Shown here in pieces: positions 401 to 46,777 of a DNA stretch of 48,323 nt. A program made the position numbers and the translations under genes. A model generated the notes under the pieces. The model was not told the origin of the DNA. It searched no databases and saw only the letters and a list, made by a program, of their open reading frames with translations. Position 1 is the first letter of the stretch. Every line of letters starts with the position of its first letter. This stretch comes from Oscillospiraceae bacterium (lineage in GTDB: Bacteria; Bacillota; Clostridia; Oscillospirales; Ruminococcaceae). Location of the stretch: positions 1-48,323 of the forward strand of contig JAIKWY010000186.1 of the NCBI GenBank assembly GCA_024684395.1. The letters run 5' to 3'.

Positions 401-492
401 TGGCGGAAAGAGAGGGATTCGAACCCTCGGTGCGCTATTAACGCACACACGATTTCCAGTCGTGCGCCTTAGACCAGCTCAGCCATCTTTCC
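401..492 (-). tRNA. tRNA-Ser (anticodon GGA)
   Basis: On the minus strand the molecule runs from GGAAAGA to TCTTTCCGCCA. It has a paired 7-bp acceptor stem, a long variable arm as expected of tRNA-Ser, a TTCGAAT T-loop and an encoded CCA. The anticodon loop is CTGGAAA, giving anticodon GGA. It is the second gene of a two-tRNA transcript, 20 nt after tRNA-Leu. Confidence 0.95.
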
Positions 493-512: not shown

Positions 513-599
513 TGGTGCGAGTGACGGGACTTGAACCCACACGTCGTTTCCAACACTAGCACCTCAAGCTAGCCTGTCTGCCAATTCCAGCACACTCGC
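513..599 (-). tRNA. tRNA-Leu (anticodon GAG)
   Basis: The minus-strand molecule starts GCGAGTG and ends CACTCGCACCA with an encoded CCA. The anticodon stem CTAGC/GCTAG holds the loop TTGAGGT, giving anticodon GAG for leucine. A long variable arm and a GGTTCAAGTCC T-arm support class II tRNA-Leu. A consensus promoter lies just upstream. Confidence 0.95.
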
Positions 600-1961: not shown

Positions 1962-2759
1962 TCAGCCCTTCTCCGCCGCATTCCTGTAAGCAAGCGGCGT
2001 GCAGCCGCAGTGCTCGTGAAACTGCCTTGCAAAATGCTCATAGCTCCGGTAGCCGGATTTGTAGGCAATGTCCCGGACGGTCATGTCTGTGGTCGTCAGC
2101 AGCATCTGCGCAAAAGCAATGCGGGCGTTGATGAGATCCTGCATGAATGTCACCCCGAAGTACTTCTTATAATAGTACTGGAACGCCGTGCGGCTCATGC
2201 GCACCTCGTGGGACGACCATTCCACCGTGCGCTGTACATACGGCTCCGTATAGATCTTGCTGCGGATCGTCAGCAGCATCTCATAGGTCAGATCTGTGCG
2301 GACGGTCTCGGTCTGATGGAGCATGTCGCTGATGCGGTTCAGCAGCAGCCAGAACCAGAGCTGTAGGTTCCCGGCACTGTTCCGCTGCCGTGCAGCATTC
2401 TCCTCCGAGATCATCTTCATGCAGTAGCTCAGGAACGATACATTCCCCATCGGCTCTGGCTTCCCTGCCGGGATGTCGAGGGAATCGAAGCGTTCCTGCT
2501 CCCCGGGCTCAAACGCAAAATGCAGCCAGTCATTCGCAAAGCTGTGCTGCGGCATACAGCGATAGAACTGCGGCATCCCCTCCGGGTAGACGATCATCGA
2601 GTTTTCCGGCACATAGACCTCCTTGCCGCCCAGCATGAACAGCGACTCGCTTTTGAGGATCAGCAGCAGCCAGTCACCGCTCCCGTCCGGTCGGTCGATG
2701 CGGAAATCGGCATCGTGGACATGGTCATAGCCAACATGATGTAAGAGCAAAACTATCAC
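1962..2759 (-). CDS. AraC-family transcriptional regulator
   Basis: 265 residues: an N-terminal cupin-like sensing domain (roughly 1-130; 'PENSMIVYPEGMPQFY' is typical) and a C-terminal double helix-turn-helix (about 165-262) ending with the family signature 'DIAYKSGYRSYEHFARQFHEHCGCTP'. It probably binds a sugar and acts on the neighbouring esterase gene; that link is inference from position. The start is uncertain: the GTG at 2759 has no clear ribosome binding site, whereas GGGGTGAT precedes an in-frame TTG at 2750. Its promoter overlaps a divergent plus-strand promoter for a putative small RNA. Confidence 0.85.
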   Translation of the reverse strand: MIVLLLHHVGYDHVHDADFRIDRPDGSGDWLLLILKSESLFMLGGKEVYVPENSMIVYPEGMPQFYRCMPQHSFANDWLHFAFEPGEQERFDSLDIPAGKPEPMGNVSFLSYCMKMISEENAARQRNSAGNLQLWFWLLLNRISDMLHQTETVRTDLTYEMLLTIRSKIYTEPYVQRTVEWSSHEVRMSRTAFQYYYKKYFGVTFMQDLINARIAFAQMLLTTTDMTVRDIAYKSGYRSYEHFARQFHEHCGCTPLAYRNAAEKG

Positions 2760-2791
2760 CCCGATTTTTTATTTTTCATCATCTATCCTGT

Positions 2792-2820
2792 ATTATACAT
2801 CATTGCAATTCTTTTGTCAA
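2792..2820 (-). promoter_or_regulatory. Sigma-A promoter of the AraC-family gene
   Basis: Minus strand TTGACA (2815-2820), 17-bp spacer, TATAAT (2792-2797). It interlocks with a plus-strand promoter whose -35 lies inside this spacer. Confidence 0.85.
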
Positions 2821-2831
2821 TCGTTTATAAT
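2803..2831 (+). promoter_or_regulatory. Divergent promoter for a putative structured RNA
   Basis: Plus strand TTGCAA (2803-2808), exactly 17 bp, TATAAT (2826-2831). The matching inverted octamers AATCGTTT (2819-2826) and AAACGATT (2852-2859) bracket the predicted start and could be an operator. Confidence 0.65.
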
Positions 2832-2837
2832 AAATAC

Positions 2838-3082
2838 ATGAAATGAGTCGAAAACGATTAAGCCAGCCTTTGAAGGAAACTGTGTGTGTGGGCACAGGTG
2901 AGGCTGCTGTCGTGGGATAATGCGGCGGGAACTGCGCTCCCTCCGCATACCAGACAGAAATGTCTGATGCAGAGCGATCTGCAAATTATCACACCTATCC
3001 TCGCACGTCACCTCCCCCCCGACGTTTGCGAAGATATAACCAAAACAGCAGACCCGCTGCATAATTTGCAGCGGGTTTGTTA
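2838..3082 (+). ncRNA. Candidate structured small RNA divergent from the AraC gene
   Basis: There is no convincing coding frame in this 245-nt stretch, but it has its own promoter, a chain of hairpins and a 3' terminator-like stem. Visible stems: CAGCCT (2873-2878) with AGGCTG, enclosing CTGTG/CACAG; an 11-position helix at 2920-2948 with one mismatch; CAGACA-GAAA-TGTCTG (2951-2966, GNRA loop); GCAGA-GCGA-TCTGC (2969-2982, GNRA loop); a hairpin at 3002-3030 whose 11-nt loop is ACCTCCCCCCC, complementary to AGGAGGU-type ribosome binding sites. I do not recognise the class. It could be a known Firmicute RNA family that I cannot match by eye. Confidence 0.55.
3052..3081. terminator. Terminator hairpin shared by the small RNA and the EAL gene
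   Basis: Perfect 10-bp stem ACCCGCTGCA/TGCAGCGGGT with loop TAATT. It is followed by TTTGTTA on the plus strand, ending the putative small RNA. In the minus direction it lies just past the EAL stop but has a poorer U-tract. Confidence 0.65.
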
Positions 3083-3084
3083 CG

Positions 3085-4704
3085 TTATGCGCCTTCTTTT
3101 TGCTCCGTCTCGTCGATGATGAGCGCAGCCGAGCCGTATGCTTTCAGGGGTCTGCCGGTCTCGTCAAATTCCGTGGTATAGCGCACACGGAACGGGATCC
3201 TGCCCACCGTGAGGGGGATGACCGCCTCGACCTCCTTCTCGCCGTTTTCGAGCTTCCGGAGCATCTCATGGTACATGTCGTAGTAATCCATCGGGAAGAT
3301 GCCGCACTCAAATGCCGAATCCGGGTAATTCTCCACCACCGGCGGCAGATGCAGGTCTCTCATGCAGCGGAAGCACGGGCGCATCTGCTTCGTCGCAAAG
3401 TAGTATTCCCACGCATAGACATTCACCTGCTCGATCGCATACCGGAAACGCCGCTCGCTGTCATACAGATCCTCATAACGCTTCTTCTCGGCGGTGACGT
3501 TCTGTACCATCGCATAGAACAGGTACTGGTCGCCCGCCTTGCCGATCATGCGGATAAAGCTCCGGATGCAGATCTTGTCCTCCCCGCAGGTCTTGGAGCA
3601 GATCTTCCGCCATGTTTCACAGGTCTGTTCCTCACCGGTCTCGATCGCCCGCTGCAAGGCATCCTGATAGATGCGCTTGTTCTCGTCATCGAGCATATCG
3701 CAGGGATCCATGCGCAGGATCTCCTTCTCGGTGAGGTTCATGCCGATCTCTTTGATATACTTCTGGTTGACACGCAGGATCTCCATGTGACAGTTCTGGA
3801 ACGAGAAGATCGCCGCACCGCCGACATAGTTGTTGAAAATGAGCGTCTCCATCGAATTGGGATCCCAGAACTTCCCGGCATCCATGACGCTGATGAGATC
3901 CATCGACTGAACCATCGGCTCCTGCTCATACTGCACGATCTTGCGGATAAATTCATCCTCCGGCACGGGCTTGGAGTAAAGATAGCCCTGTACATAGCAG
4001 CAGCCGATGCTCTTCATATAATCCGCCTGCTCGATCGTCTCCACGCCCTCTGCCACGGCAGGTGTACCGAGCCACTTGGTCATCTGCACCATCGAGCTGA
4101 TGATCGTTCCGCCCCGTCCGCCGATGTTGCCGCTGAGGAAGCGCATATCGAGCTTGATGACGTCCACCGCCAGGTCTTTCAGGACATTCAGCGAGGAATA
4201 GCCACTGCCAAAATCATCCATCTCAACCACATAGCCGATGGCGTGGAGCTTCTGGAGCACGTCGGAAACGAGCTCCATGCCCCCGATGGCGGAGGACTCC
4301 GTGATCTCCACATGCAGAAGCTTCACGGGGATGTCGTACTTCTTGCGGATGACCTCGATCTCGTCGAGGTAATTGTTCCGGAAGATGTCGTAGCGGGACA
4401 TGTTGACGGAGATCGGCACAGGCTTGACATCCTCGTCAAGGCATCTGCGCTGGAACCGGCAGACCTGCTCAAAGATGGCAAGGTCAGCCTTGTTGATGAG
4501 ATCATGCTGCTCCAGCACGGGAATGAAATCCGACGGGTACTGCATCCCGTGCTCCGGATCCTGCCACCGCATCAGCGCCTCTGCGCCGATCATTCTGCCC
4601 GTGGCATGGTTCACCTTCGGCTGATAGCACACAAAGATGTGCCCCTCCTGCAAAGCCTTGGAAAAGCCTTGCAGCAGCTCTTCCTCTGTCATACGTGTAT
4701 TCAT
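3085..4704 (-). CDS. EAL-domain c-di-GMP phosphodiesterase with C-terminal PAS-like domains
   Basis: 539 residues. The EAL domain comes first (about 12-262) and keeps the metal and catalytic residues: EAL at 42-44, Asn101 (SVNMS), Glu133 (EITES), Asp163-Asp164 in DDFGSGYSS, Lys184 and Glu219 (AEGVET). It is therefore probably an active phosphodiesterase cleaving c-di-GMP. Two PAS-like sensory segments follow (about 285-405 and 415-535). EAL-then-PAS is the reverse of the usual order. There are no membrane segments, so it is cytosolic. GGGAGGT precedes the ATG by six bases, and a perfect promoter lies upstream. The gene stands alone. Confidence 0.9.
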   Translation of the reverse strand: MNTRMTEEELLQGFSKALQEGHIFVCYQPKVNHATGRMIGAEALMRWQDPEHGMQYPSDFIPVLEQHDLINKADLAIFEQVCRFQRRCLDEDVKPVPISVNMSRYDIFRNNYLDEIEVIRKKYDIPVKLLHVEITESSAIGGMELVSDVLQKLHAIGYVVEMDDFGSGYSSLNVLKDLAVDVIKLDMRFLSGNIGGRGGTIISSMVQMTKWLGTPAVAEGVETIEQADYMKSIGCCYVQGYLYSKPVPEDEFIRKIVQYEQEPMVQSMDLISVMDAGKFWDPNSMETLIFNNYVGGAAIFSFQNCHMEILRVNQKYIKEIGMNLTEKEILRMDPCDMLDDENKRIYQDALQRAIETGEEQTCETWRKICSKTCGEDKICIRSFIRMIGKAGDQYLFYAMVQNVTAEKKRYEDLYDSERRFRYAIEQVNVYAWEYYFATKQMRPCFRCMRDLHLPPVVENYPDSAFECGIFPMDYYDMYHEMLRKLENGEKEVEAVIPLTVGRIPFRVRYTTEFDETGRPLKAYGSAALIIDETEQKEGA

Positions 4705-22812: not shown

Positions 22813-23110
22813 AAAAACGCCCCGAAGCGTTGATAGCTTCAGGGCGAACAATAGTCCGTGTTACCACCTGAATTCGGATGCACTGCATCCGCACTCGTGC
22901 AGCGGGAGAATCATGTGCCATGTGACGGCGCCGCTCTCTGACTGCATTCTCTGTAACGGGAGAACCCGTCGGGGACTACTTGGCGTGAGCCGTTCGACCC
23001 GATGCTCAGGGGCTACCTTCCGCACCATCCCGCACGCATCCTTACACCAGCCGGATGCTCTCTTTGCCGCAGAAATGGCGGTACTCCTCCCCGTCATTGC
23101 ATGTGAATGT
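22813..23110 (-). promoter_or_regulatory. T-box riboswitch controlling valS
   Basis: On the minus strand, stem I begins near 23100 (GACGGGGAGGAGTA) and closes with GTAGTCCCCG. The conserved T-box AGGTGGTAACACGG lies at 22856-22869. The competing terminator (22813-22846) is CGCCCTGAAGC/GCTTCGGGGCG followed by TTTTTCG. Uncharged tRNA-Val should favour the antiterminator. I could not fix the specifier codon by eye; GUC at 22996-22998 and GUA or GUC at 22974-22979 are candidates. Confidence 0.93.
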
Positions 23111-44515: not shown

Positions 44516-46402
44516 TCAATACATGAGATTGAAAAATTCCTGCCACCAGTCGCCGTTTTTACCGGAGTTGCCGCACTCTACCATGTAGGTGTGACCGTCG
44601 ATCTCGACCTGTGTCCAGAAATGCTGGTTACCGGAGTCGGTGTAGCCCTTGACCATGTAGACATCAAAGCCGTAGTACGCCAGTACCGAAGCCATAGCGC
44701 CGTTGTACTGTACACACTGACCCTTGCGGTGGTTGAAGATCGCATCTACGTAGGAGCAGCCCACGATCTCGTTCCACTTCCAGCCTGCATAGGCGTAGTC
44801 GTTGTTATAGTGGATCCACTGGTGCGTGATATAGAGCTTCTCCGCCAGAGAAGCATTCTCCGGGAAGTTCTCGGCAGCAAACTGCTCGATGATCTCAATG
44901 TCACGGTCGCTCAGCGTGAAGGTGAAGTCCACCTTGGACTTGCCGGTGCCCTTCTGCTGGTCGTAAACGGTGATCGTGCGTCTCGGGCTCAGGGATGCGG
45001 TGTTCAGCAGGTCATCCTTGCCCGTGCCGGTGTTGGATACCGGAGGAACATACTCGCCCTTGGAAACGCCGTCCGTGCCGAAGTCGTACTTCGTGCCGTC
45101 AACCTCAACGATGCCCTTGACCATTGCACCGTTCTCGTCGAGATAATACTTGTTGCCATCGACCTCGACCCAGCCCTTCTGCTGGATGCCGTCTTCACCG
45201 AAGTAGTAGCGCTTGCCGTCCACATCGAGCCAGCCGGTCGCCATGACAGCATTGTCGCTGGTGAAGAAGTAGGTCTTGTCGTTGATCGTCTGCCAGCCGG
45301 TGCAGCAGATACCGTCTGCATCGAGGTAGCAGGTGCCGTTCTCGGAATCCACAAAGCCGCTCATGCGCAGGCCGTTGTCATCGAAGCAGTAGCGAATGCC
45401 GTCAGCCAGTGCCCAGCCGGTACACATCTTGCCGTTCTCGTCAAAGTACCGCAGACCGTCATCGAGCTTGACCCAACCGCCTTGCAGTCCGAAGCCGTTG
45501 CCAAAATAATAGGTAGCGCTGTCGATCTTCTGTACGCCCTGTACCAGAACGCCGTCCTTGCCGGCATAGCAGCGGCGCTCACCGATGGTGATCCAGCCGG
45601 TCTGGAGCGCATTGTTCTCGAAATAATAGGGCTTCTCGTCCAGGATGCGCAGCCCGTCAGCAGGTGTGCCGTCCGTATCGAACCAGCAGCGGCCGTTGTC
45701 GGTATCCGCCCAGACACCGGCAGCCATCTCGCCGGTCGCAGTCATCCAGAGCTTCTGGTCATTCTTGACTTCGAGCCAGGTGTTCTTGTACATCACACCC
45801 TCGTTGTCGAAGCAGTATGTCTGCTCGTCATCATCAAACCAGCCTGTGATGAGCTGGTAATCCTCACCTGCATAGTAGCTCTCGCCGGAGGGATCGTCGA
45901 TCCGTCCCTTAAGGAGCTTGCCGTTTTTATCTGCATAATAATACGCAAAGCCGAAGGGATGAACTTCCTCGCCGGCGCCTACCAGAGCGCTGTAGCGCAG
46001 GATATTGGCGGAATCGGAAGCATTGACATCGCCGTTCTCGTCCACATCGCCGTAGAGCTCGTCCATTTCGGAGATGCTGCCGTCCGCAGATGCGCCCTTG
46101 GAAGCGGAAAGGATCAGCAGCACGGCTGCATCCTGTGCATCGACCTTGCCGTCGTGGTTCATATCGCCGAGCATGTAGTTCGGCTCAAGACTAAATTTAC
46201 CGGTAACGAACTCATCCCCCTGCTCATAGCAGACAGAACCGTCCGATTTTACGGTGAGACGGTCAGCCGCCTTCATGGCAGTGGCAGTGCTGATCTCGAG
46301 ATCAGATGCAGAAAGCTCCTGCGGGCTGAGCAGCATAGGTGTACCGCAGGCACACAGCGCAGCCACAAAAACGGGGACGAGCTTCTTGGTAATCGGGTTC
46401 AT
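44516..46402 (-). CDS. Secreted protein: dockerin-like segment, cell-wall-binding repeats, transglutaminase-like domain
   Basis: 628 residues. Signal peptide (about 1-32); EF-hand pair at 78-142 (GDMNHDGKVDAQD and GDVDENGDVNASD), dockerin-like but N-terminal; about 14 CW-binding/glucan-binding repeats of roughly 20 residues at 150-445 ('GWVEVDGNKYYLDENGAMVKG' pattern); then a transglutaminase/protease-like domain at about 490-628 with GQCVQYNGAM (Cys563), His594 and Glu609 as the likely triad. It probably sits on the cell surface and cuts or crosslinks wall peptide or protein; this is inference. AGGAGG is 11 bases ahead of the ATG, and a 195-nt structured leader precedes it. Confidence 0.88.
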   Translation of the reverse strand: MNPITKKLVPVFVAALCACGTPMLLSPQELSASDLEISTATAMKAADRLTVKSDGSVCYEQGDEFVTGKFSLEPNYMLGDMNHDGKVDAQDAAVLLILSASKGASADGSISEMDELYGDVDENGDVNASDSANILRYSALVGAGEEVHPFGFAYYYADKNGKLLKGRIDDPSGESYYAGEDYQLITGWFDDDEQTYCFDNEGVMYKNTWLEVKNDQKLWMTATGEMAAGVWADTDNGRCWFDTDGTPADGLRILDEKPYYFENNALQTGWITIGERRCYAGKDGVLVQGVQKIDSATYYFGNGFGLQGGWVKLDDGLRYFDENGKMCTGWALADGIRYCFDDNGLRMSGFVDSENGTCYLDADGICCTGWQTINDKTYFFTSDNAVMATGWLDVDGKRYYFGEDGIQQKGWVEVDGNKYYLDENGAMVKGIVEVDGTKYDFGTDGVSKGEYVPPVSNTGTGKDDLLNTASLSPRRTITVYDQQKGTGKSKVDFTFTLSDRDIEIIEQFAAENFPENASLAEKLYITHQWIHYNNDYAYAGWKWNEIVGCSYVDAIFNHRKGQCVQYNGAMASVLAYYGFDVYMVKGYTDSGNQHFWTQVEIDGHTYMVECGNSGKNGDWWQEFFNLMY

Positions 46403-46634: not shown

Positions 46635-46777
46635 TACTTTGTAACTAATTAATCGTTTACGTAACTCATATATTACAAAAAGGTTACTACTATCACGAAG
46701 GGGATACATTTCATTAGAGGGGGGGGAGTGTACATGAAAACCATTTTGTGTGCTATATTATGCATAATCTCTGTAAA

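Follow-up and report, generated by a model that had tools for sequence, protein, structure and literature searches.

The window analysed here, a stretch of 48,323 nt, contains a spacer flanked by an AraC-family regulator gene and a convergent EAL-domain gene, both on the minus strand (Table 1). Comparison by eye with the AraC orthologue of a second species (genome G008) indicates that translation of the regulator probably starts at a TTG codon at 2750. Two tRNA genes, tRNA-Ser (GGA) at 401-492 (-) and tRNA-Leu (GAG) at 513-599 (-), adjoin the GDSL and AraC genes. An initial annotation of this DNA had proposed that the spacer encodes a small RNA transcribed divergently from the AraC gene. The plus-strand promoter on which this proposal was built (TTGCAA-17-TATAAT, 2803-2831) was confirmed at this position, as was the interlocking of the two divergent promoters, the plus-strand one overlapping that of the AraC gene (2820-2792). 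A promoter scan found 2 promoters, compared to 0.8 +/- 0.9 in shuffled sequence, and the -35 box of the plus-strand promoter is weak, with 4/6 consensus matches.

Table 1. Genes and sequence features at the AraC/EAL spacer, in window coordinates.
Feature	Position	Strand	Basis
AraC-family regulator	1962-2759	-	Pfam HTH_18 and HTH_AraC
Operator-like 27-bp element with ATCAT direct repeats at 21-bp spacing, extending into the plus-strand -35 box	2778-2804		pattern also at G008:C9 and G008:C80
AraC gene promoter, TTGACA-17-TATAAT, overlapping the plus-strand promoter	2792-2820	-	perfect consensus match, 12/12
Putative promoter of the RNA, TTGCAA-17-TATAAT	2803-2831	+	consensus match 10/12; aligns with G008:C9 and G008:C80
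Proposed small RNA	2838-3082	+	promoter and folding; both ends inferred, 3' end taken as the stem common with the EAL gene
C-rich hairpin, stem of 4+5 pairs with UU bulge, loop ACCUCCCCCCC at 3010-3020	3001-3031	+	folding; C7 loop counterpart in the G008:C80 unit
Terminator stem, chiefly that of the EAL gene; may serve both sides	3052-3076		called on the minus strand only
EAL-domain protein, convergent	3085-4704	-	Pfam EAL; orthologues within the genus

Folding of positions 2838-3090 yielded -99.8 kcal/mol and a z-score of -6.3, with 0/200 shuffled sequences folding as well. Much of this value is due to the 3' stem: without it, positions 2838-3040 reached z -3.7 on the plus strand and -2.9 on the minus strand, and values of -3.74 or lower were obtained for 19 of 482 segments of 203 nt when both strands of the window were scanned with 30 shuffles per segment. 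The strong folding ascribed to the RNA holds for the full stretch, but without the 3' stem the fold is only moderately unusual. The 3' stem itself is present; as a feature of the RNA it is nevertheless weakened, as it belongs primarily to the EAL gene. It sits just past the EAL stop codon, the scan calls it only for the minus strand, and it is weak as a plus-strand terminator. Hairpins are also visible by eye 3' of the EAL stop codon in several orthologues.

The hairpin said to expose ACCTCCCCCCC is present as described, with seven Cs in its loop. Folded alone, positions 2995-3040 gave -12.9 kcal/mol (z -5.3) and left the loop sequence unpaired, so that the hairpin carries the C-rich single-stranded stretch which characterizes the C-rich-loop small RNA class of Firmicutes.

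A known structured class had been considered as an alternative; the covariance search with Rfam 15 at gathering scores matched no family in the RNA stretch, and at a permissive threshold it returned only two chance matches to snoRNAs (E 0.89 and 1.9). The proposed RNA is outside every Rfam family. In the window, the Rfam search also detected a T-box leader at 22837-23106 (-), with 107.5 bits. Comparison of the locus among relatives, advised for the recognition of conserved stems, yielded no homologue of the RNA body in 38 genomes of the genus and 394 genomes of the order. Here, a covariance model derived from the single sequence (R1) gave no other match at E 1 among the genus genomes, with two weak ones at E 1.7 and 4.5, and recovered the window only from the order genomes under stricter filters (E 0.1). 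Nucleotide searches returned only the window itself plus two weak, short matches of 27 and 33 nt from the own genome and 60 relatives, and no match from phage and plasmid collections. The remaining hairpins and GNRA loops of the structured body likewise had no relative detected in the searches run. One match to the C-rich hairpin, on G008:C53, was rejected, since the frame whose end it occupies is transposase-like by eye.

The neighbouring genes were followed separately. In 13 loci bearing EAL genes, comprising nine orthologues at 66-72% identity and four more, neither the AraC gene nor the RNA was found beside the EAL gene by eye (<=600 nt inspected at each; 305 nt at L035), and the order sample yielded no further match to the AraC protein at E 1e-70. 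Its nearest orthologue, at 55% identity, is encoded on contig C9 of G008, divergently from a GH5 cellulase gene (Pfam Cellulase, 3e-54); more distant AraC relatives (L021, L007 and L008) are also divergent to such a GH5 gene. The window promoter region (2760-2860) aligned to the G008:C9 AraC/GH5 spacer with a score of 73, against 33.8 +/- 5.1 for shuffled sequences (0/300 as high), and the RNA body scored 24 against 24.2 for shuffles. The two regions are thus alike in their orthologous regulator, in their divergent promoter region with the 27-bp element and in a structured plus-strand leader, which at G008:C9 is ~225 nt long (z -3.5 over 186 nt of it). They differ in that the G008:C9 leader enters the GH5 gene and has no C-run, its longest C stretch being 3. 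Local alignments of the RNA to 13 GH5-bearing loci, nine of them from the own genome, did not exceed the maximum of 10 shuffles, except at L052 (24 vs 19) and L056 (19 vs 16). Among the GH5 genes of the own genome, L053 (G000:C132) and L051 (G000:C65) have long leaders that are hairpin-rich by eye.

The C-rich loop had been proposed from the window sequence before a further G008 site, on contig C80, was known. This site was recovered with a promoter-only query (2740-2862) that ends well before the C-run: in the five genomes searched, the best match not from the own genome lay at G008:C80:1216-1276, with 77% identity over 61 nt and E 9.5e-7, the G008:C9 site not being among the matches listed. 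In order, the G008:C80 site comprises the 27-bp element with its ATCAT repeats, TATAATAAATACA, ~80 nt, an 11-bp hairpin and a T-rich tail. The terminal hairpin is perfect over its 11 bp, exposes the loop CTTCCCCCCCTTTGT and is followed by the tail TTGTTTTT (z -5.1), and the ~80-nt unit contains no ATG. Upstream, a gene with dockerin and carbohydrate-binding domains is followed by a hairpin and T-run (by eye), and a convergent tRNA-Thr lies beyond the unit. Neither a plus-strand promoter nor a terminator was called by the scanner at this site, because the -35 box is poor (3/6 by reading) and the hairpin loop exceeds the scanner limit.

Runs of seven Cs are rare in both genomes: with both strands counted and the two sites among them, G008 has 4 within 465,391 bp and the own genome has 9 within 448,323 bp, which corresponds to an expectation of ~4e-4 per 85 nt of G008 and 2.5e-3 per 245 nt of the own genome. 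As controls we used the 34 other loci returned by the window promoter and G008:C80 searches, 27 of them including the -10 box and one ending at 123 nt; over the stretch from each match to 300 nt beyond, C7 occurred in 0/34 and C5 in 2/34. In the genus search with G008:C80:1195-1360, the next matches were G008:C9 (1.1e-7), the window's own genome, G000 (2.2e-6), and G033:C82 (3.4e-6), the last covering the promoter core only, before another gene. As the promoter core alone reaches such a value, a common origin of the sites rests on the upstream element together with the C-run. The common element and promoter, the C7 hairpin loop after two of the three element sites (the exception being G008:C9) and the rarity of C7 are direct observations. 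Elsewhere in the window, a further run of at least seven Cs lies at ~40328 (+), between TGTATTG and CAATACA, and a C8 run is found on the minus strand at 46720-46733.

Sites for AraC-type activators consist of two direct half-sites ~21 bp apart that adjoin or overlap a weak -35 box. The 27-bp element, whose pattern comes from the three sites themselves, has this layout: by reading of the sequences, the ATCAT repeats are 21 bp apart at 3/3 sites and reach into a weak -35 region. With up to 3 mismatches, the element occurs as a single copy in the window (0 expected), and no further copy was found in 913,714 bp covering parts of both genomes. The pair AATCGTTT/AAACGATT, first put forward as the common operator, was not supported, AATCGTTTNCGAYT with at most 1 mismatch having 9 genome matches compared to 11 for a reversed-pattern control; TCACCTCC alone is not rare either (4 in the window vs 1.78 expected). 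Of the two candidates, the ATCAT repeat at 2778-2804 is the likelier joint-control element. The proposal of a C-rich-loop RNA under joint control with the AraC gene is strengthened by the C7-loop unit in a second species, found through the promoter alone, and probably needs revision as to the element. The presence of the element at G008:C80 without an adjacent AraC gene fits binding of the AraC protein in trans.

Taken together, these results are best explained, with moderate confidence, by a small RNA under AraC control that masks Shine-Dalgarno sequences through its C-rich loop. The main alternative is that the spacer preserves the remnant of an ancestral cellulase messenger with a long structured 5' leader, of which the enzyme gene was lost while promoter and leader remain, up to the terminator of the neighbour, and have no function today as an independent RNA. 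The G008:C9 promoter region, which runs into GH5 after just such a leader, and the divergent GH5 genes beside the distant AraC relatives speak for this origin. On the other hand, the RNA body and the G008:C9 leader, which lacks the C-run, do not align, and the separate G008:C80 unit has the C-run together with its own hairpin and T-rich tail; we consider it unlikely that the RNA is such a remnant. We give still less credence to the view that the spacer holds no RNA gene at all, its hairpins having arisen by chance between the AraC promoter and the EAL terminator. The modest z-score remaining without the terminator, which 19 of 482 window segments attain, and the absence of detected homologues of the body from the own genome, the 60 relatives and the genus and order samples agree with it, yet the plus-strand promoter region is conserved in G008, leading there to a gene or to an RNA-like unit, and the C7 coincidence between the window and G008:C80 argues against chance. 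A small-protein messenger is highly improbable: open frames are present, e.g. one of 34 residues at 2960-3064 and one of 25 residues at 2843, but neither start is preceded by a clear Shine-Dalgarno sequence, the 34-residue frame stops within the terminator stem, the 34-, 77- and 81-residue frames have no Pfam match (the 25-residue frame lay outside this search), and the G008:C80 unit is devoid of ATG.

Returning to the small RNA with a Shine-Dalgarno-masking loop, we analyzed candidate targets by pairing the window loop with start regions. The neighbouring genes scored -13.6 (EAL) and -12.2 kcal/mol (AraC, using the chosen TTG start), ranking 5th and 7th among the 29 window genes; random stretches have their 10th percentile at -12.8 kcal/mol, which places the pairing with the neighbours within background. 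With first-ATG starts, EAL ranked 4th and AraC 29th of 33. Exported proteins appeared as preferred targets in a first G008 set (10/19 vs 18/96, p 0.003); this signal was not replicated in a fresh set of 196 G008 genes (6/32 vs 31/164, p 0.59). In the own genome, exported genes paired slightly better, and a plain anti-Shine-Dalgarno control did so equally (p 0.008 against 0.015; 0.040 against 0.008). The hypothesis of secreted targets was dropped on these two grounds. The pattern GGGGGGAGN{2,10}ATG had 9 sites vs 2 for its control, before a mixed set of genes. As a target pattern, GGGGGAGGTN{2,10}ATG was discarded, since it yielded a dispersed palindromic repeat instead. This repeat has the core CCCCC..GGGGGAGGTGYCGCCGWATG, mostly GCGGCGGAGGGGG, and lies between genes at nine G000 sites (L060, L061, L064-L070). 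In the window, a minus-strand gene at 44516-46402 has a product that combines choline-binding repeats with a match to dockerin and others of transglutaminase/acetyltransferase-like type.

In the model that we favour, the plus strand from ~2838 to 3082 would be transcribed from the promoter with the weak -35 box as a stand-alone non-coding small RNA, which the divergently encoded AraC protein would turn on by binding to the ATCAT repeats at 2778-2804. The RNA is predicted to form several hairpins, with the C-rich loop at 3010-3020 as its active part; this loop would pair with the G-rich Shine-Dalgarno sequence of target mRNAs and block their translation. As the same element precedes a GH5 cellulase gene and the C7 unit in G008, the circuit may couple plant-fibre enzymes with a brake on translation. 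It is conceivable, although we put this forward only tentatively, that cellulose-degrading gut Firmicutes possess a regulon in which one AraC protein and the 27-bp element drive both a cellulase and fast-changing C7-loop RNAs that brake genes with G-rich Shine-Dalgarno sequences, i.e. a mixed transcription-RNA feed-forward loop. If the model is true, a regulatory RNA is tied to an AraC regulator which adjoins a cellulase in a related species, in hosts that look like fibre-degrading gut bacteria; moreover, the operator and the seven-base loop would have persisted as the remainder of the RNA was replaced, and such RNAs are missed by sequence-based RNA searches. The dockerin and cellulase genes suggest a Ruminococcus-like bacterium. 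A literature search, at the level of its search results, returned no paper on such an RNA in such bacteria.

The small RNA is probably real and of a functional kind already known, with an operator link to the AraC regulator and to the AraC-cellulase pair. In Firmicutes, the C-rich loops of small RNAs are able to base-pair with Shine-Dalgarno regions, one example being IsrR of staphylococci (PMC9410917). IsrR resembles the RNA proposed here in having single-stranded loops with 4 to 7 C; it ends in its own terminator, and its modelled interactions include the Shine-Dalgarno sequence of target mRNAs (PMC9410917). It differs in being Fur-regulated, with three C-rich regions and conserved first stem-loops (PMC9410917). 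A sequence relation is not expected. FsrA of Bacillus is comparable to the mode of action predicted here in that its C-rich motif binds a Shine-Dalgarno sequence, and differs in that it serves the iron response, needs FbpA, FbpB and FbpC, and belongs to another genus (PMC9410917).
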